A stretch of 64,000 bases of DNA. It comes from Kineosporia succinea (GTDB lineage: Bacteria; Actinomycetota; Actinomycetes; Actinomycetales; Kineosporiaceae). Position 1 is the first letter of the stretch; every line of letters starts with the position of its first letter. The position numbers and the translations under genes were made by a program. The notes beneath the pieces are model-generated. The model did not search any database. It had not been told where the DNA came from and saw nothing but the letters and a program-made list of their open reading frames with translations. Shown in pieces: positions 26,955 to 34,271 of this stretch. The stretch lies in contig NZ_JAUSQZ010000001.1 of assembly GCF_030811555.1 (NCBI RefSeq), forward strand, positions 3,593,241 to 3,657,240, read 5' to 3'.

Positions 26955-26963
26955 ATCTGGCGA

Positions 26964-27034
26964 GCCGGGATAGCTCAGTGGTAGAGCACCTGATTGTGGA
27001 TCAGGAGGCGGGGGTTCGATACCCCCTCCCGGTA
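26964..27034 (+). tRNA. tRNA-His (GTG anticodon) with A73
   Basis: A full cloverleaf is seen: acceptor GCCGGGA/TCCCGGT (26964-26970 with 27027-27033, first pair G-U), D arm GCTC/GAGC, anticodon stem CCTGA/TCAGG with loop TTGTGGA (anticodon GTG, histidine), and T arm GGGGG-TTCGATA-CCCCC. The discriminator base at 27034 is A and the base before the 5' end is A. The usual bacterial His identity pair G-1:C73 is therefore not encoded. CCA is not encoded. The gene lies 71 bases before hisS. Confidence 0.9.
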
Positions 27035-27105
27035 CAAGTAGATCGCTTTGCGATCTCCTTGCGCGCCGGGCGTCCTCCCCAGCGCACGAGGAAGAAGACC
27101 AGCAC

Positions 27106-28608
27106 ATGACCGGCCTGGTTCGCCCGCAGAACCTGCGTGGATTCCGCGACCTGCTGCCCGAGGAGATGCTCCTCCGCAACGAAGTCGTGGCCCGCATCAC
27201 CAAGGTCTACGAGAGCTTCGGGTTCGTCCCGCTCGACACCCCCGTTCTGGAGTCCCTGCCCACGCTGCTCGGCAGCGGTGGCGAGGAGGCCGACAAGCAG
27301 ATCTTCATCGTCCGCGAGAACGTCAAACCGGTTGCGGCAGAGGGCGAAGAAGAGGCCGGCCCGGTCGAGGTCGGGATGCGCTTCGATCTCACCGTGCCGT
27401 TCGCGCGGATCATCGCGCAGTACGCCCCGCAGCAGATCAAGCTCCCCTTCCGGCGCTATCACTGCGGCCCGGTCTTCCGTGCCGACGACCCGCAGCCCGA
27501 GCAGGGCCGGTTCCGCCAGTTCACCCAGTTCGACGCCGACATCGCGGGCAGCTCCACGGTGGCCGCCGACGCCGAGATCGTGGCCCTGCTCACCTCGGCG
27601 TTCGACGCGCTCGACCTGGGTCGCGGAGACGGTTACGTCGTCCGGGTGAACAACCGCAAGCTGGTGGACGCCTTCCTGGCCGGAGTCGGCATCGGCGAGT
27701 TCGAGGTCGCCCGGCACGTGCTGCGGGTGCTCGACAAGGCCGACAAGATCACCCCCGAGGCGCTGCGCGCCGAGCTGGGGGAGGGCCGCTTCGACGTCTC
27801 CGGCGACCGCATCCGCGGCGTCGGGCTGGCCGAGGACCTGATCGACCGGCTGCTGGCGTTCGTCGGGGTGCAGGGCGCCACGCGCACCGAGACCCTCGAC
27901 CGGCTGGCCGCCCTGCTGCCCGACGACGAGCAGGCCCAGGCCGCCGTCGCCGAGGTCCGCGAGTTCCTCGGCCACCTCAAGGCGCTCGGGGTCAGCGAGG
28001 CCGGGGTCAAGCTCGACCCGAGCCTGGCCCGGGGGCTGGCCTACTACACCGGCACGGTCTACGAGGCCACGCTGGTCGGGGCCGGGGTCGGCTCGATCGG
28101 GGGCGGCGGCCGTTACGACGGTCTGGTCAGCCGCTTCAGCGACGACCCGGTCGCCGCCGTCGGTGTCTCGATCGGCATCGACCGGCTGGTCACCGGCCTG
28201 GCGAACCTGGGCATCGCCTACAGCACGGCGAAGACCACGGCCGACGTGGTGGTGCTGGTCATGCCCAAGGTCGATCCGGTCGAGGCGACCCGGGTGTCGG
28301 CGCTGCTGCGGGAGGCCGGCGTGGCCACCGAGCTGTACGTCGGTGAGTCGGTGGGCAAGGTCGGCAAGCAGCTGGCCTACGCCAACAACCAGGGCTTCAA
28401 GGCCGCCGTGATGATCGGTGGCAACGAGGTGAAAGACGGCACGGTGACCGTCAAGAACCTGATCGCCGGCGCCGAGTCGCGGGCCGCGATCGCCGACAAC
28501 AGCGAGTACCGCGCGGCCAAGGCGGCCGGGCAGATGACCGTCCCCCGGGCCGAGCTGCTCGCCACCGTGCGGGAGATCCTGGGCACCGTTTCGGAGGAGA
28601 ACCGATGA
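27106..28608 (+). CDS. hisS: Histidyl-tRNA synthetase, long eukaryote-like type
   Basis: This 500-residue class II synthetase attaches histidine to tRNA-His. Motif 2 reads FRRYHCGPVFRADDPQPEQGRF then RQFTQFDADIAG (about 115-148), the form seen in eukaryotes, Bacteroidetes and one alpha-proteobacterial clade. It is not the usual actinobacterial form (about 420 residues). The HisA motif is LARGLAYYTGTVYE (308-320), with Ala where Asp is common, and motif 3 is GVSIGIDR (353-360). A C-terminal anticodon-binding domain (VVVLVMPKVDPVEATRVSALL) is present, so it is not HisZ. It follows an A73 tRNA-His and overlaps hisG by 4 bases. Confidence 0.92.
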   Translation: MTGLVRPQNLRGFRDLLPEEMLLRNEVVARITKVYESFGFVPLDTPVLESLPTLLGSGGEEADKQIFIVRENVKPVAAEGEEEAGPVEVGMRFDLTVPFARIIAQYAPQQIKLPFRRYHCGPVFRADDPQPEQGRFRQFTQFDADIAGSSTVAADAEIVALLTSAFDALDLGRGDGYVVRVNNRKLVDAFLAGVGIGEFEVARHVLRVLDKADKITPEALRAELGEGRFDVSGDRIRGVGLAEDLIDRLLAFVGVQGATRTETLDRLAALLPDDEQAQAAVAEVREFLGHLKALGVSEAGVKLDPSLARGLAYYTGTVYEATLVGAGVGSIGGGGRYDGLVSRFSDDPVAAVGVSIGIDRLVTGLANLGIAYSTAKTTADVVVLVMPKVDPVEATRVSALLREAGVATELYVGESVGKVGKQLAYANNQGFKAAVMIGGNEVKDGTVTVKNLIAGAESRAAIADNSEYRAAKAAGQMTVPRAELLATVREILGTVSEENR

Positions 28609-29615
28609 GCCGCAAGCAGATCACGCTGGGCATCCCGAAGGGCAGCCTGCAGCAGAGCACGCTGGGCATCTTCGAGCGGGTCGGCCTGCAGTTCACCGGT
28701 GGCTCGCGCACCCTGTGGCTGAGCTCGAACGACCCGGAGATCGTGCCGGTGCTGCTCAAGCCGCAGGAGATCCCGATCTACGTGAAGTCGGGTCGGCTCG
28801 ACGCCGGGCTGTCCGGCCGGGACTGGATCGTCGAGCAGGACGTGCTGCAGGACATCGCGGTGAAGGCCGAACTGCCGTTCTCCCGGCAGACCTCGCGCCC
28901 GATCCGCTGGGTGCTCGCGGTGCCGGCCGCCTCGCCGATCAAGACCGTCGAAGACCTGCGCGCCGAGTGTGACCGCCGGCGTCTGGCCGGCGACCCGTTC
29001 GTCATCTCCACCGAGCTCACCCGCATCTCGCGGATGTGGCTGGCCCGGCAGGGTGTGGATGCGCACGTCGAGTTCTCGTGGGGTGCCACCGAGGCCAAGG
29101 CGGAGTACTTCGCCGACGCCATCATCGAGGGCGTCGAGACTGGTAACTCGCTGCGCGCCAACCACCTTCGTGAGGTGGCCGAGGTCTTCAGCTCGACCAA
29201 CCAGTTCTTCGTCAGCCGCCGCATCTACCGTGACGACGAGTGGAAGCGCTCCAAGCTCGACGCCCTCTCGCACCTGATTCGCGGTGCCCTGCGTGCCAAC
29301 GACGTGGTCGAGCTGCGCGTGGTGGCCGAGAAGCCCCTGCCCCTGGAGACGATCCTCGGACCCGACGCCAGAGTGGTCTCGGCGTCCGAAGCCGTTGCCG
29401 GGCAGGGATTCACCGCCACCGTCACGTTGCCGAGGGGCTCCGTGCCCTACGCCCTGCCCGCCGTGATCGCGGCCGGGGCCACGGACGCCTGGGTCTCGCC
29501 GATGTCGATCTACTACAGCCACGAGGCCGACGCGACGTCGAAGGCCGCGGCCGAGGCCCGCAACGCCAGCGCCAGCCTGCCGCTCGCGCCGCTGGCCCCG
29601 ACCGGTATGGCGTAA
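28605..29615 (+). CDS. hisG: ATP phosphoribosyltransferase, archaeal-like long HisG
   Basis: This 336-residue enzyme makes the first step of histidine synthesis from ATP and PRPP. It shows LGIPKGSLQ, KPQEIPIYVKSGRLDAGLSGRDW split around residues 50-72, WVLAVPAASPIKTVEDL, HVEFSWGATEAKAEYFADAI and the PRPP loop EGVETGNSLRANHLRE. These blocks are like archaeal-type long HisG and unlike the mycobacterial enzyme. A C-terminal regulatory domain follows (ATVTLPRGSVPYALPAVIAAGATDAWVS). The start overlaps the hisS stop (ATGA), so the two are co-translated. A second, typical hisG may exist elsewhere. Confidence 0.88.
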   Translation: MSRKQITLGIPKGSLQQSTLGIFERVGLQFTGGSRTLWLSSNDPEIVPVLLKPQEIPIYVKSGRLDAGLSGRDWIVEQDVLQDIAVKAELPFSRQTSRPIRWVLAVPAASPIKTVEDLRAECDRRRLAGDPFVISTELTRISRMWLARQGVDAHVEFSWGATEAKAEYFADAIIEGVETGNSLRANHLREVAEVFSSTNQFFVSRRIYRDDEWKRSKLDALSHLIRGALRANDVVELRVVAEKPLPLETILGPDARVVSASEAVAGQGFTATVTLPRGSVPYALPAVIAAGATDAWVSPMSIYYSHEADATSKAAAEARNASASLPLAPLAPTGMA

Positions 29616-29658
29616 CTCCGAGGCGGTGGAGTGCCTCGGAGTCTGGGCACCCGGGGCG

Positions 29659-29880
29659 CGGGTGGCTGGGTGCCCGGGGCGCGGGGACGCGGGTGGCTGG
29701 GTGCCCGGGGCGCGGGGACGCGGGTGGCTGGGTGCCCGGGGCGCGGGGACGCGGGTGGCTGGGCGCTCGGGGACGCGGGTGGCTGGGTGCGCGGGGACGC
29801 GGGTGCTCGGGATGCGGGTGGCTGGGTGCTCGGGATGCGGGTGGCCGGGCACTCGGGATGCGGGTAGGCGGGTGGCTGGG
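29659..29880 (+). repeat. Imperfect 31-bp tandem repeat (minisatellite)
   Basis: Three exact or near-exact copies of a 31-base unit beginning CGGGTGGCTGGGTGCCCGGG start at 29659, 29690 and 29721. Shortened variants of 23-24 bases and one of 15 bases follow to about 29880. Units keep CGGGTGGCTGGG and vary in the second half. The run starts 43 bases after the hisG stop. Confidence 0.85.
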
Positions 29881-30044
29881 CCCGGAGTCCGAGTACGTGA
29901 GTAGCTGGGTGCCCGGGGCGCATGCCGATCTCCGGGGCCCGAGCCGTCAGTGCTCGGCAAGGCCCGGGAGCCCAAGTCTCCAATACCCCAAGCGCCCCAT
30001 GGGCCACGAGGCTCCAGGGTGCGGGTTTTCATTCTCAAATTGCT

Positions 30045-30091
30045 CGTACGATCCGTAAGGCTCTCAGGCTCAGGACCTTACGGATCGTACG
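30045..30091. terminator. 16-bp perfect inverted repeat
   Basis: CGTACGATCCGTAAGG (30045-30060) pairs perfectly with 30076-30091 around a 15-base loop that itself contains CTCAGG twice. It probably terminates hisG read-through and/or pnkp (stop at 30244). Confidence 0.7.
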
Positions 30092-30243: not shown

Positions 30244-32808
30244 TCACAGTCTCGGGTCGATCGGCTCCGACTCCAGCGCCAGCACCGAGAACACGGCCTC
30301 GTGCACCCGCCAGAGGGGCTCGCCGGCGGCCACCCGCTCCAGGCCCTCCAGACCCAGCGCGTACTCCCTCAGGGCGGCAGCCCGTTTACGGCCCACCGCA
30401 CGGGACTTCAGCCGGGCCAGGTTCTCCTCGAGCAGGTAGTCCGGGCCGTAGATGATGCGCAGGTACTCGGGGCCACGCACCTTCAGGCCGGGCTGCACCA
30501 GGCCTCGCTTGGTACGGGTCAGGTTGGCCAGGGGCTTCACCACCATGCCCTCGCCCCCCTCCCCGACGAGCTCCTCCCACCAGGTCACCGCCAGGTCGAC
30601 GGCGCCGGCCGCGGCCGGGTCGAGCACCATCCGGCGGGTGGTGAGGAACAGCGGGTCGGCCTCCACCAGGCGGTCGGCCAGGGCCAGGTGCCAGTGGTGG
30701 TCACGGTCGTGGAAGGTCGTGCCCTCGGCCGCGAGCAGCTGGAAGGGAGCCACCCGCACGCCGTCCAGTCCTTCGGAGGGCCAGACGTAACGGCGGTAGG
30801 CCTGCCCGAACGCATCCGCGGCGTCGCGCCGGGCCCAGGTGCGGTTGCGCAGCTCGAGCAGGGCCGGCACCCGCTGCGCGGCGGCGTTCAGGGCCTCGAC
30901 GGCCGGCGGCAGGGCTGCGCGGGAGGCTGCTCCCACCGCCGCGTACTGCTCCCGGATCAGGGCGTCGGCCTTCAGCGACCAGGGCAGGATCTCGGCGTCG
31001 AGCAGCACCCAGCCGGTGTCGAGCTCGTTCCAGATGCCGGTGCTCTCCAGGGCCGAACGCACCCGGTCGAGAAGGGCTTCCGAGTCGCTGACCGACGAGA
31101 AGAAGGGACGGCCGGTGCGGGTGTGCACGATTCCCGTCTGCCCGTCGGGGAACCCGAAGCGCGAACCGGCCACCGACGCGTCGCGGCAGACCAGCACGAC
31201 GGCCCGCGAGCCCATGTGCTTCTCTTCGCAGATCACCTCGGGCACGCCGTCTTTCGCGTACGCGGCGAACGCCTCGGCCGGGTGCTCCAGCAGCCCGGGC
31301 CGGGTGCTGGTGGGTGTCGGGGCCATCGTGGGCGGCAGGTACAGCAGCCACCGCGGGTCGACGGCCCAGCGGCTCATCACCTCGAGGGCCCCGGCCGCGT
31401 TCTCGGCCGAGACCGTGACCCGGCCGTGGTGACGGGTCTGCACCGAGCGCTTGCCCGAGACGTCGGCGAGCGTGAGAACATCCGGCTCGCGCGCGGTCTC
31501 GGGTTCCTTCGCCGGGTCGGACGGCACGAACGGCTTGGCCGGCTCGTACCAGACCTGCTCGGCCGGCACGCTGACGATCTCACGCTCCGGGTACCGCAGT
31601 GCCGTCAGGCTCCCGCCGAACACCGCGCCGGTGTCGAGGCAGAGGGTGTTGTTGATCCACTCGGTGGTCACGGTCGGCGTGTGCCCGTAGAGCACCGTCG
31701 CGCGGCCCCGGTAGTCCTTGGCCCACTGGTAGCGCACCGGCAGGCCGTAGCTGTCGGTCTCGCCGGTGGTGTCGCCGTACAGCGCGAAACTCCGCACCCG
31801 TCCCGAGGCCCGGCCGTGGTAGGCCTCTTTCAGCCCGGCGTGGGCCACGACCAGGTTGCCGCCGTCGAGCACGTAGTGCGAGATCAGGCCCTCGCAGAAC
31901 GCGGCCACGGTGGTGCGGAACTCCGGCGTCTCCGACGCCAGCTGGGCCATCGTGCGCTCCAGCCCGTGCGTGAGCTTCACGTCGCGCCCGGCCAGGGCCC
32001 GCACCAGCTTGTGCTCGTGGTTGCCGCTGACGCACAGCGCGTGGCCGGAGTCGATCATGCCCATCACCAGGCGCAACACACCGGGGGAGTCGGGGCCCCG
32101 GTCGACCAGGTCACCCACGAACACGGCCGTGCGCCCGGCCGGCGGCACCGCGTCGACCGGGTTGCCCGCCGGGTCGAGGATCAGGCCGTAACCCAGCTTG
32201 CCGAGCAAGGTCTCGAGCTCGGCACGGCAGCCGTGCACGTCGCCGATCACGTCGAACGGGCCGGTGCGCGCGCGCAGGTCGTTCAGAAGCGGCTCGCGCA
32301 CGATCACGGCCTCGGCCGCCTTCTCCGGCGAGTCGAGCACGTGCACCCGGCGGAAGCCCTCACGCTTGAGGCCCCTCAGCGAACGGTGCAGCGACTCGGA
32401 CTGCCGGTGGATCACCCGCGCCCCGAAGTCCCGGTCGGTGCGGGACGCGTTGCGCTCGAGACACACCTCTTTCGGCGTGTCCAGCACGATCGCCACGGGG
32501 AGCACGTCGTGGTCGCGGGCCACCCGCAGCAGGCTCGCCCGCGCGTCCTTCTGCACGTTGGTGGCGTCCACCACGGTGAGCAGCCCGGCCTCCAGGCGCT
32601 TGCCCACGATGTAGTTCAGCACGTCGAACGCGGCGGCCGTGGCGTCCTGCGAGTTCTCGTCGTTCGAGACCAGGCCTCGGCAGAAGTCGCTCGAGATCAC
32701 CTCGTAGGGGCCGAACTTGGCCCGCGCGAAGGTGGACTTGCCCGATCCGGAGACGCCCACGAGCACCACCAGGCAGGTGGCGGGAACGGTCAGCTGGTGC
32801 TCGCTCAT
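30244..32808 (-). CDS. pnkp: Polynucleotide kinase-phosphatase-ligase (bacterial Pnkp)
   Basis: This 854-residue, three-domain RNA repair enzyme has an N-terminal kinase with Walker A GVSGSGKST (18-26). A calcineurin-type phosphatase with GDVHGC (189-194), GDLVDRG (232-238) and GNHE (262-265) follows. The C-terminal adenylyltransferase/ligase has nucleophile Lys530 in EEKHMGSR. It heals cleaved RNA ends (5' phosphorylation, 2',3'-cyclic phosphate removal) and seals with Hen1. The start at 32808 overlaps the hen1 stop by 4 bases (ATGA). All catalytic motifs are present. Confidence 0.95.
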   Translation of the reverse strand: MSEHQLTVPATCLVVLVGVSGSGKSTFARAKFGPYEVISSDFCRGLVSNDENSQDATAAAFDVLNYIVGKRLEAGLLTVVDATNVQKDARASLLRVARDHDVLPVAIVLDTPKEVCLERNASRTDRDFGARVIHRQSESLHRSLRGLKREGFRRVHVLDSPEKAAEAVIVREPLLNDLRARTGPFDVIGDVHGCRAELETLLGKLGYGLILDPAGNPVDAVPPAGRTAVFVGDLVDRGPDSPGVLRLVMGMIDSGHALCVSGNHEHKLVRALAGRDVKLTHGLERTMAQLASETPEFRTTVAAFCEGLISHYVLDGGNLVVAHAGLKEAYHGRASGRVRSFALYGDTTGETDSYGLPVRYQWAKDYRGRATVLYGHTPTVTTEWINNTLCLDTGAVFGGSLTALRYPEREIVSVPAEQVWYEPAKPFVPSDPAKEPETAREPDVLTLADVSGKRSVQTRHHGRVTVSAENAAGALEVMSRWAVDPRWLLYLPPTMAPTPTSTRPGLLEHPAEAFAAYAKDGVPEVICEEKHMGSRAVVLVCRDASVAGSRFGFPDGQTGIVHTRTGRPFFSSVSDSEALLDRVRSALESTGIWNELDTGWVLLDAEILPWSLKADALIREQYAAVGAASRAALPPAVEALNAAAQRVPALLELRNRTWARRDAADAFGQAYRRYVWPSEGLDGVRVAPFQLLAAEGTTFHDRDHHWHLALADRLVEADPLFLTTRRMVLDPAAAGAVDLAVTWWEELVGEGGEGMVVKPLANLTRTKRGLVQPGLKVRGPEYLRIIYGPDYLLEENLARLKSRAVGRKRAAALREYALGLEGLERVAAGEPLWRVHEAVFSVLALESEPIDPRL

Positions 32809-34271
32809 CGGGACACCTCCAGGGTGAAGACGGCCAGTTGCGTCGGGGGGCCGGCCTCCGGATGCTCGGTGCCGACGCCCTTGAACCGCACGGAGTACCC
32901 GTAGCGCACCGCCACATCGGCGGCCCAGGCCTGGAACTGCTCCCGGTCCCACTCGAAACGGTGGTCGGTGTGCCGGGTCTCGCCGTGCTCCAACCCGAAG
33001 TGCGCGTTGTGCTCCACGTTCGGCGTGGTCACCAGCACCACCCCCGGCCGTGCGGTGCCGAAGACGTTCGCCGCCAGCACCGGCAGCCGCGAGGGGTCGA
33101 CGTGCTCGATCACCTCGGACAGCACCGCCGCGTCGTAACCGCTCAGCGAGGCGTCGGCGTAGACCAGCGACGACTGCCGCAGCGTGATGCGCTCACGCAC
33201 CCGGTCGGACTGCTGTTCCAGCCGCAACCGGCGCACCGCGGTCTGCAGCGCCCGGTGCGACACGTCCACGCCCAGAAGTCTCTGATAGCGCGGGTTCTCG
33301 AGCAGCGCCCGGAGCAGCTTGCCCTCCCCGCAGCCGAGGTCGGCCACGCTCTGCGCACCCGCCGCCTCGAGCGACTCGACCAGGGCGTTCACCCGCTGCA
33401 CCCACAGCGGAGCCTCCGGCCCCGCGAGAACCGGCGCGACCACGGACCCGTCGGGAGAGACCGACCCGACCGACGCGTCCTCAAGCTCGTTCTCCTCGGC
33501 CACCAGATCGGGCGACACCTCGTCCTCGAGACCGGCGAACCGCTCGGACGCGTCGTCGACCAGGCGCCGCTGGTGACGCAGGTACCGCTCGGTGATCAGC
33601 GCGCGCTCGGGGTGCTCGGTGAGCCAGCCCTCCCCGGCCCGCACCAGTTTGTCGACCTCGTCGGCGGTGACCCAGTAGTGCTTGGCGTCGTCGAGCACGG
33701 GCAGCATCACGTAGAGCTGACTCAGTGCGTCGGACACCAGCTTGCGGCCACTCAGACGCAGGTCGACGTAGGGCGAGTCGCCCCAGCCGAACTCCGGGTC
33801 CAGCGGCACCGGCGTCACCGAGACCGACCAGCCCAGGGGCTCGAAGAGTCGGCGCGCCACGTCGGTGCCACCCCGGCAGGGCAGTGCCGGTACGTGCAGC
33901 GACAGGTCGAGCGGCGCCCCGGGCAGGTCGGGCCGCACGTCGCAGCGACCACTGATCGCCGTCTTGAACACCTTGCCCAGCGCCACGGCGAGCATCGACG
34001 AGGCGGCGTAGGGCCGGTCGTTCACGTACTGCGCCAGCGAGAAACCCTCGGCCGGCCGGGAGCCACGGCCCCGCACCAGCGCGATCGGGTCGACCTCCAG
34101 CAACAGGGCAGCCGTGCAGGTGGTCGCGTCGGCGCGCGGGTAGAACACGTGCGCCGTGCCGACGGGCAGCCCGAACTTCTGCGCCCGGTCGGGATGCTTG
34201 TGCAGCAGGTAGCCCAGGTCGGTGGCCGGAGCCTCGGTCCGCTCGCTGGTCGAGGTGATCGTCAGGAACAC
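32805..34271 (-). CDS. hen1: RNA 3'-terminal 2'-O-methyltransferase Hen1
   Basis: This 488-residue partner of Pnkp has an N-terminal domain that activates the Pnkp ligase (FLTITSTSERTEAPATDLGYLLHKHPDR) and a C-terminal SAM methyltransferase with DLGCGEG (311-317). The metal-binding EVIEHVD (386-392) with later His residues (VEHNAHFG) completes it. It methylates the 2'-OH at the RNA break before ligation, so repaired RNA resists a second cut by the same ribotoxin. The GTG start is at 34271. An acidic linker (about 245-270) separates the domains. Confidence 0.95.
   Translation of the reverse strand: MFLTITSTSERTEAPATDLGYLLHKHPDRAQKFGLPVGTAHVFYPRADATTCTAALLLEVDPIALVRGRGSRPAEGFSLAQYVNDRPYAASSMLAVALGKVFKTAISGRCDVRPDLPGAPLDLSLHVPALPCRGGTDVARRLFEPLGWSVSVTPVPLDPEFGWGDSPYVDLRLSGRKLVSDALSQLYVMLPVLDDAKHYWVTADEVDKLVRAGEGWLTEHPERALITERYLRHQRRLVDDASERFAGLEDEVSPDLVAEENELEDASVGSVSPDGSVVAPVLAGPEAPLWVQRVNALVESLEAAGAQSVADLGCGEGKLLRALLENPRYQRLLGVDVSHRALQTAVRRLRLEQQSDRVRERITLRQSSLVYADASLSGYDAAVLSEVIEHVDPSRLPVLAANVFGTARPGVVLVTTPNVEHNAHFGLEHGETRHTDHRFEWDREQFQAWAADVAVRYGYSVRFKGVGTEHPEAGPPTQLAVFTLEVSR

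Follow-up and report, generated by a model that had tools for sequence, protein, structure and literature searches.

A linked tRNA-His and histidyl-tRNA synthetase related to the alphaproteobacterial A73 type have probably replaced the canonical histidine pair in Kineosporia

We analysed a 64,000-nucleotide stretch of the genome of Kineosporia succinea (the window, positions 3593241-3657240 of an assembly that is a single contig of 8,065,021 bases and 98% complete) and found in it a gene for tRNA-His that carries A at position 73 (A73) and encodes no G at position -1 (G-1), followed by hisS, the gene for histidyl-tRNA synthetase (HisRS), and by hisG, the gene for ATP phosphoribosyltransferase (Table 1). 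In this assembly, the tRNA and the synthetase are the cell's only histidine-charging system, a replacement and not a second pair. Sequence comparisons indicate that the histidine identity rules of Kineosporia have given way to those of a linked pair with alphaproteobacterial relatives. We consider it very probable that a Kineosporia ancestor acquired a linked orthogonal A73 pair, which displaced the canonical pair and now charges histidine alone and by non-canonical rules. An earlier note on this DNA had proposed either that an actinobacterial lineage changed its rules of histidine identity or that the cell holds a second orthogonal pair; the former would fit the sole pair, its A73 and the tree position of HisRS, whereas the latter finds no place in an assembly with one tRNA-His and one HisRS.

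Searches of the whole genome for a C73 tRNA-His, a second hisS or a second hisG found none, and hence no standard pair beside which the A73 tRNA could be an unused pseudogene. The genome holds 59 tRNAs (Rfam, re-called by ARAGORN), whose anticodons cover all 20 amino acids; a single one is a tRNA-His. Within the window, ARAGORN called a single tRNA, the tRNA-His with anticodon gtg at 26964-27035 (+); the last base of this call is C74, so that the tRNA body ends at 27034 in A73, in agreement with the GTG anticodon, A73 and missing G-1/C73 that had been read from the sequence before. Its acceptor stem, GCCGGGA/UCCCGGU, pairs as G1:U72, C2:G71, C3:G70, G4:C69, G5:C68, G6:C67 and A7:U66. The gene ranks fourth among the 59 tRNAs by its Rfam score, and its 71 bases are identical in all seven Kineosporia rows of our comparison, which indicates from sequence that it is a good gene. 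A protein search of the genome for another HisRS returned, besides the HisRS of the window, one 14-bit match with internal stops. Similarly, TIGR00442 gave seven matches at E<=10, one of them above the cut-off; the next scored 30.9 bits, which also argues against a HisZ in the genome. With a sole tRNA-His and a sole HisRS in the assembly, the pair is therefore no addition to a standard one.

The HisRS gene starts 71 bases after the tRNA and encodes the 500 residues described in the earlier note, whose coordinates and peptides quoted from motif 2 and from HisG were likewise correct. Motif 2 reads RRYHCGPVFRADDPQPEQGRFRQFTQFDADIAG, and the protein has RGLAYYTG (from residue 309) and GGGGRYDGL (from 332), which we take to be histidine-site motifs of HisRS. 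The predicted fold is ordinary, with best Protein Data Bank matches to 6nhi, the human enzyme and 3net.

We searched 30 selected genomes with a tRNA-His pattern that left the length of the variable loop free; it matched in 28, with no match in the genomes of loci L016 and L017. Base 73 was A in 18 of the 28 rows and C in 10. The A73 rows comprised seven from Kineosporia (five distinct assemblies, as G065/G514 and G121/G516 share equal coordinates), the genome of locus L015, three metagenome-assembled genomes (MAGs) labelled deltaproteobacterium or Myxococcales (L043, L047 and L061, hereafter Myxococcales-type) and seven of the eight alphaproteobacterial genomes asked, while the C73 rows comprised all six other genomes of the family together with G475, G371, G292 and G187. 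Position -1 followed the same division, being G in all ten C73 rows and another base in all 18 A73 rows. Beyond these two positions, C2:G71, A31:U39 and A38 were common to Kineosporia, L015, all three Myxococcales-type tRNAs and six of seven alphaproteobacterial ones, which also share A73 and the non-G base at -1; the ten C73 rows uniformly had U2:A71, G31:C39 and U38 with G-1. U72 occurred in 17 of the 18 A73 rows, and the Kineosporia tRNA was 86% identical to that of L015. A pattern for A73 tRNA-His that required a 5-nucleotide variable loop matched in none of 394 genomes of the class; the Kineosporia loop, with 4 nucleotides, lies outside that pattern. As the signature positions match the alphaproteobacterial type, the tRNA appears to have travelled along with HisRS. 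We infer that the mature tRNA-His would lack G-1, with RNase P cutting accordingly, and would be recognized via A73 and the acceptor end.

The HisRS of the window and that of Kineosporia mesophila are 86% identical. In a sample of 149 genomes of the order, 145 of which had any match, all four Kineosporia genomes scored 843-1067 bits, the best other genome 201.6 bits and the six other genomes of the family 154-200 bits; among the 394 genomes of the class, three passed E 1e-61, namely the window's own and two more, whose matches (at 212 and 226 bits) turned out to be additional HisRS genes in genomes with a C73 tRNA-His. The genome of L015, a MAG whose label is taken from its record title, had one HisRS match at E<=1e-20 and one tRNA-His match. 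We then built a tree of 54 HisRS sequences, comprising four Kineosporia rows, L015, L016 (a Hydrogenedentota MAG), the three Myxococcales-type rows, 20 of the 72 other L017-L091 loci, 16 of 26 ordinary loci of the order, six further HisRS of G135, G292 and G475, and three references. Kineosporia grouped with L015 (support 100/100) and then with L016 (100/98), and this clade was sister, at 98/91, to an alpha-type clade of the 20 alphaproteobacterial and three Myxococcales-type rows. Ordinary actinobacterial HisRS, including two of the same family, grouped with Nostoc at 100/99, and the two HisRS of G135 (same family, 4% contamination) fell elsewhere on long branches. Approximately unbiased (AU) tests rejected a grouping of Kineosporia with ordinary actinobacterial HisRS (p 1e-7; p 0.002 with L015 added) and one of Kineosporia and L015 with the human enzyme (p 0.0004). 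Hence, the window's HisRS does not fall inside ordinary actinobacterial HisRS, and both the tree and the AU tests point to an ancestry shared with the alpha-type enzyme rather than with that of the host phylum. The label "eukaryote-like" given to it in the earlier note is not supported by the tree, where its relatives are the alphaproteobacterial A73-type enzymes and two MAG proteins. Excerpts of PMC5370408 cite a study that gave no support for a HisRS transfer from eukaryotes to alphaproteobacteria; our tree, with human HisRS as the only eukaryotic sequence in it and in the AU tests, would not decide that question, and a union of the whole A73-type clade with human HisRS was not rejected (p 0.164). 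The Myxococcales-type rows were nested inside the alphaproteobacteria, which suggests that a further transfer of the pair is likely.

The motif-2 loop, which reads base 73 in other HisRS and which we compared in an alignment of 27 HisRS, sets the Kineosporia enzyme apart from the alphaproteobacterial ones. In excerpts of PMC3937112, Gln123 of motif 2 contacts G-1:C73 in most bacteria, while Gly123 marks the A73 clade of alphaproteobacteria. Ordinary loci of the order read RGERPQ[EDA]GR in 26 of 26 cases; Gly stood in the 18 alphaproteobacterial rows of the alignment and in L016 (all PGPGR) and in the three Myxococcales-type MAGs (PGP, then A or S). Kineosporia and L015 read PQPEQGR, with Gln retained and two residues more than the alphaproteobacterial loop. 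The Kineosporia loop is a derived one if that of L016 is ancestral for the clade of the three. Among the motif-2 residues that contact base 73, to which the earlier note had pointed for a check, the alphaproteobacterial Gly is absent and Gln with two extra residues stands in its place. Since Gly is missing, the Kineosporia pair is a variant and not a plain member of the alpha-type pair. The longer, Gln-bearing loop appears to break a simple Gly/A73 rule and would be the most testable new point, at a site where the confidence of the structural model is lower (70-74 per ten residues).

The linkage that the earlier note had described extends beyond the window. The Kineosporia loci L012-L014 and L015 all have tRNA-His, hisS and hisG in this order, although the flanks of L015 showed one weak match to the window only (28% identity, far from the three genes) and contained no match to the Kineosporia neighbours, an M15 peptidase and Pnkp. 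Since the same gene order lies in unrelated flanks, the unit was either transferred whole or conserved while its surroundings changed. The Myxococcales-type MAGs have their A73 tRNA-His downstream of hisS on the opposite strand, at <=0.1 kb in L047 and L061 and ~1 kb in L043. At the order's 26 ordinary HisRS loci, no tRNA lay within about 1.5 kb. Going further, we tentatively propose, as a possibility that we rate somewhat short of probable, that tRNA-His, hisS and hisG form a portable identity-switch cassette, which would move as one DNA segment and could replace the histidine rule of a host in a single acquisition (as in Kineosporia, and in L015 with its unrelated flanks), and whose HisRS would read A73 by its lengthened Gln-bearing loop, unlike both the canonical (Gln, C73) and the alphaproteobacterial (Gly, A73) modes.

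For the replacement itself, we suggest that tRNA-His and HisRS would have entered a Kineosporia ancestor together, as a linked G-1-less pair of the A73 type that is a relative of the alphaproteobacterial pair without falling inside it, with hisG joined at some stage. Excerpts of PMC9976931 and PMC3875453 describe A73, U72 and the anticodon as the identity set in Caulobacter crescentus, and that pair as orthogonal to the Escherichia coli pair. As no cross-reaction with the resident G-1:C73 pair would be expected, both pairs could have coexisted until the resident tRNA-His and synthetase were lost. This order of acquisition, coexistence and loss is what we infer; the single genes, their sequence features, the position in the tree, the distribution and the linkage were observed directly. 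Alternatively, maturation could be eukaryote-like, with Thg1 or a Thg1-like protein adding G-1 opposite A73 and HisRS reading it as the yeast and human enzymes do. The eukaryotic state is indeed A73 without an encoded G-1 (PMC6471195, excerpt), and the Kineosporia loop RADDPQPEQGR equals the human RRDNPAMTRGR in length, the alphaproteobacterial loops being two residues shorter. However, we regard this as unlikely, given that the Thg1-like proteins of bacteria make Watson-Crick additions and are poorly active on A73 (excerpt of the same paper), that the AU test rejected a clade of Kineosporia, L015 and human HisRS, and that its nearest relatives belong to the alpha type, in which, according to the cited papers, no G-1 is added. 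Even less probable is drift in place, in which the native actinobacterial tRNA-His lost G-1 and became A73 while its own HisRS co-evolved, all without transfer: the 73-76% identity of the tRNA to the ordinary tRNA-His of the family is not very low and the base composition of hisS and hisG is native, but the family's ordinary HisRS has another place in the tree, with its union with Kineosporia rejected, tRNA positions 2:71, 31:39 and 38, away from base 73, match the alpha type, and tRNA and hisS adjoin each other in Kineosporia and L015 but at no ordinary locus of the order within the flanks given above. A second orthogonal pair kept beside a standard one has next to no probability, since some members of the class do have duplicate HisRS genes (two above the cut-off in G475 and likewise in G292) but the single tRNA-His and single HisRS refute it for this one-contig assembly.

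Several observations weigh against acquisition and replacement by an alpha-type pair. In overall identity, the Kineosporia tRNA-His is at 81% to that of the alphaproteobacterium Methyloligella and 72-78% to six other alphaproteobacterial ones, with 73-78% to ordinary tRNA-His from the same family and class (two of them at 70%; family 73-76%) and 79% to the cell's own tRNA-Phe; overall tRNA identity is hence less telling, and the signature positions alone appear to speak clearly. Even these vary, as the Bartonella tRNA-His (L194) lacks A38 and A31:U39, having U31:A39 and C38 together with C2:G71 and A73, and that of L015 has C72, whereas U72 is important in Caulobacter. The Gly123/A73 covariation of the alphaproteobacteria is absent from Kineosporia with its Gln and longer loop. 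No tRNA-His was found in the flanks (up to 3 kb, some shorter) of the 72 other L017-L091 loci, and linkage is therefore not a trait of the alpha type. GC content and GC content at third codon positions of hisS and hisG are like those of their neighbours and leave no compositional trace of transfer; any transfer is therefore probably old. The tree points to no donor: Kineosporia HisRS is sister to the alphaproteobacterial clade and not inside it, so that transfer may have run in either direction. Finally, the AU test only just failed to reject an A73-type clade without L016 (p 0.059), the human and other reference sequences have long branches and unusual composition that make deep placing in the tree weak, and the labels of L015, L016 and the Myxococcales-type rows, all of them MAGs, could be in error.

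Relatives of this HisRS were also seen in other settings. Among plasmid matches H21-H37, hisS genes with 34-39% identity to that of the window lie on large secondary replicons of alphaproteobacteria and on one 22-kb plasmid (Cereibacter sphaeroides); relatives of this synthetase therefore do reach such replicons. Among eight pattern matches in viral contigs, none encoded a relative, and we rejected carriage by phage. In L043, L047 and L061, a different contig carries another HisRS-like gene with a weaker match, which may be HisZ. G475 (L165/L208) and G292 (L166/L207) each have an additional HisRS whose motif 2 contains Gly (RADRPGKGR / RADRPGRGR); L165 and L166, the next-best scores in the class after Kineosporia, were rejected as further A73 cases, being extra genes beside a Gln-motif HisRS (L196 and L195, respectively) and a C73 tRNA-His.

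The hisG gene completes the linked set. Among solved enzymes, its product was nearest in sequence to that of Methanothermobacter (2vd3, 59 bits; 29 bits for Mycobacterium tuberculosis), and its model has a C-terminal ACT-like domain at residues 234-299, with the best Foldseek matches to Medicago and 2vd3 (305 columns for the latter). This predicted fold and the lack of a second HisS/HisZ-like match above 31 bits in the genome would fit a long-form HisG, while Pfam HisG_C found no match in the protein at E 0.001. With the window's HisG as query, 28 of the 394 class genomes reached E<=1e-20 (own score 732 bits, others 119-150 bits); no other genome of the order did so, and none of those is in the HisG tree. 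In that tree, a single long branch unites Kineosporia with L015 and lies, at a weak 84/77, near the long-form HisG of other class members. A role as alphaproteobacterial companion was rejected, the protein being 20-30% identical to alphaproteobacterial HisG and on a separate side of the tree. Hence, HisG appears to be a divergent long form paired with this hisS, on a very long branch without firm placement; it looks foreign for its order, as the earlier note had held, but "archaeal-like" claims too much for a nearest solved enzyme at 59 bits.

Beyond hisG lie the RNA-repair genes Pnkp and Hen1, of which Pnkp is also present in L012-L014, where the position of Hen1 would fall past the flanks. 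Pnkp homologues occurred within 3 kb of A73-type hisS, in other arrangements, in 11 of 77 non-Kineosporia loci (L017, L018, L020, L022, L024, L028, L032, L037, L056, L057 and L059), several of which are from Hyphomicrobiaceae and so perhaps reflect few events. Co-transfer of Pnkp and Hen1 was not supported: Pnkp of Kineosporia shares 59-63% identity with copies on Rhodococcus plasmids, against 47-55%, over most longer pieces, with the alphaproteobacterial copies beside hisS (60-68% over some short pieces). By eye, we further noted an inverted repeat, CGTACGATCCGTAAGG / CCTTACGGATCGTACG, at 30045-30091 between the convergent hisG and Pnkp, a possible two-way terminator, and GC-rich short tandem-like repeats (ctgggtgcccggggcgcgggg...) at 29640-29900 downstream of hisG.

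Table 1. Features of the tRNA-His-hisS-hisG region and its neighbours, in window positions.
Feature	Position	Strand	Basis and remarks
Position -1 of tRNA-His	26963..26963	+	A; G in canonical bacterial tRNA-His
tRNA-His(GUG)	26964..27034	+	ARAGORN; Rfam 73.7 bits; G1:U72, C2:G71, A31:U39, A38, A73; 4-nucleotide variable loop; CCA not encoded
hisS, histidyl-tRNA synthetase, 500 residues, A73-type lineage	27106..28608	+	TIGR00442 337.7 bits (curated cut-off 286.75); tree; sole HisRS; model pLDDT (predicted local distance difference test) 85.5
HisRS motif-2 loop, residues 129-134 (PQPEQG)	27490..27507	+	Alignment of 27 HisRS; Gln in place of the alpha-type Gly; two residues longer
hisG, putative long-form ATP phosphoribosyltransferase, 336 residues	28605..29615	+	TIGR00070 127.1 bits (cut-off 75.75); start overlaps the hisS stop (ATGA); ACT-like domain predicted at the C-terminus; sole HisG
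Pnkp	30244-32952	-	PF16542, 574.6 bits; RNA-repair gene beyond hisG
Hen1	32805-34271	-	PF12623; RNA-repair gene beyond hisG

Differences in tRNA identity rules were thought to hinder the transfer of synthetase genes between domains (PMC5370408, excerpt), and the side-by-side genes of a matched pair suggest how a cell could switch a translation rule in one step. The same change in another phylum, where named Kineosporia strains carry the pair in linked form, would offer a natural experiment on rule replacement, to which the three MAGs labelled Myxococcales or deltaproteobacteria, with their pair nested among alphaproteobacteria, may add a further transfer. The Kineosporia loop would further allow a test of whether the motif-2 Gly really reads A73, and, as a high-GC actinobacterium, Kineosporia supplies a new candidate for an orthogonal HisRS/tRNA pair.

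Known cases without G-1, as named in excerpts of PMC9976931, PMC3937112, PMC6471195, PMC5370408, PMC7590224, PMC3875453 and PMC4284800, are the alphaproteobacterial clade, some protists and a mitochondrial tRNA of Caenorhabditis elegans; among the titles and abstract openings that we covered, which leave out subscription papers, there was no report of the change in bacteria outside alphaproteobacteria. The Kineosporia HisG resembles the long-form enzymes of Methanothermobacter (2vd3) and Medicago (6czl/6czm) in its catalytic domain and in a predicted C-terminal beta-alpha-beta-beta-alpha-beta domain, but differs in its lack of a Pfam HisG_C match, its 20-25% identity and its very long tree branch. 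With the eukaryotic system, where Thg1 adds G-1, the Kineosporia pair shares A73, the absence of an encoded G-1 and the length of the motif-2 loop, while the two enzymes are not sisters in the tree. The ordinary actinobacterial pair of other Kineosporiaceae has the same fold and function in the same family of organisms, but differs by G-1, C73, U38, the motif-2 sequence RGERPQ[EDA]GR and a HisRS that groups with the Nostoc enzyme. From the G-1-less A73 pair of alphaproteobacteria (Rhizobiales, Rhodobacteraceae, Caulobacterales and Hyphomonadaceae, with biochemistry in Caulobacter crescentus), the Kineosporia pair differs in its host, an actinomycetote, in the tRNA gene that adjoins hisS (against none of 72 alpha-type loci), in the loop PQPEQGR in place of PGPGR, in its unencoded CCA, and in its long HisG without a HisZ-like match, where both alphaproteobacterial genomes scanned had a HisZ-like match beside hisS. 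Overall, it is this alphaproteobacterial pair that the Kineosporia pair is like in A73, the absence of an encoded G-1, G1:U72, C2:G71, A38 and a HisRS of the sister clade.

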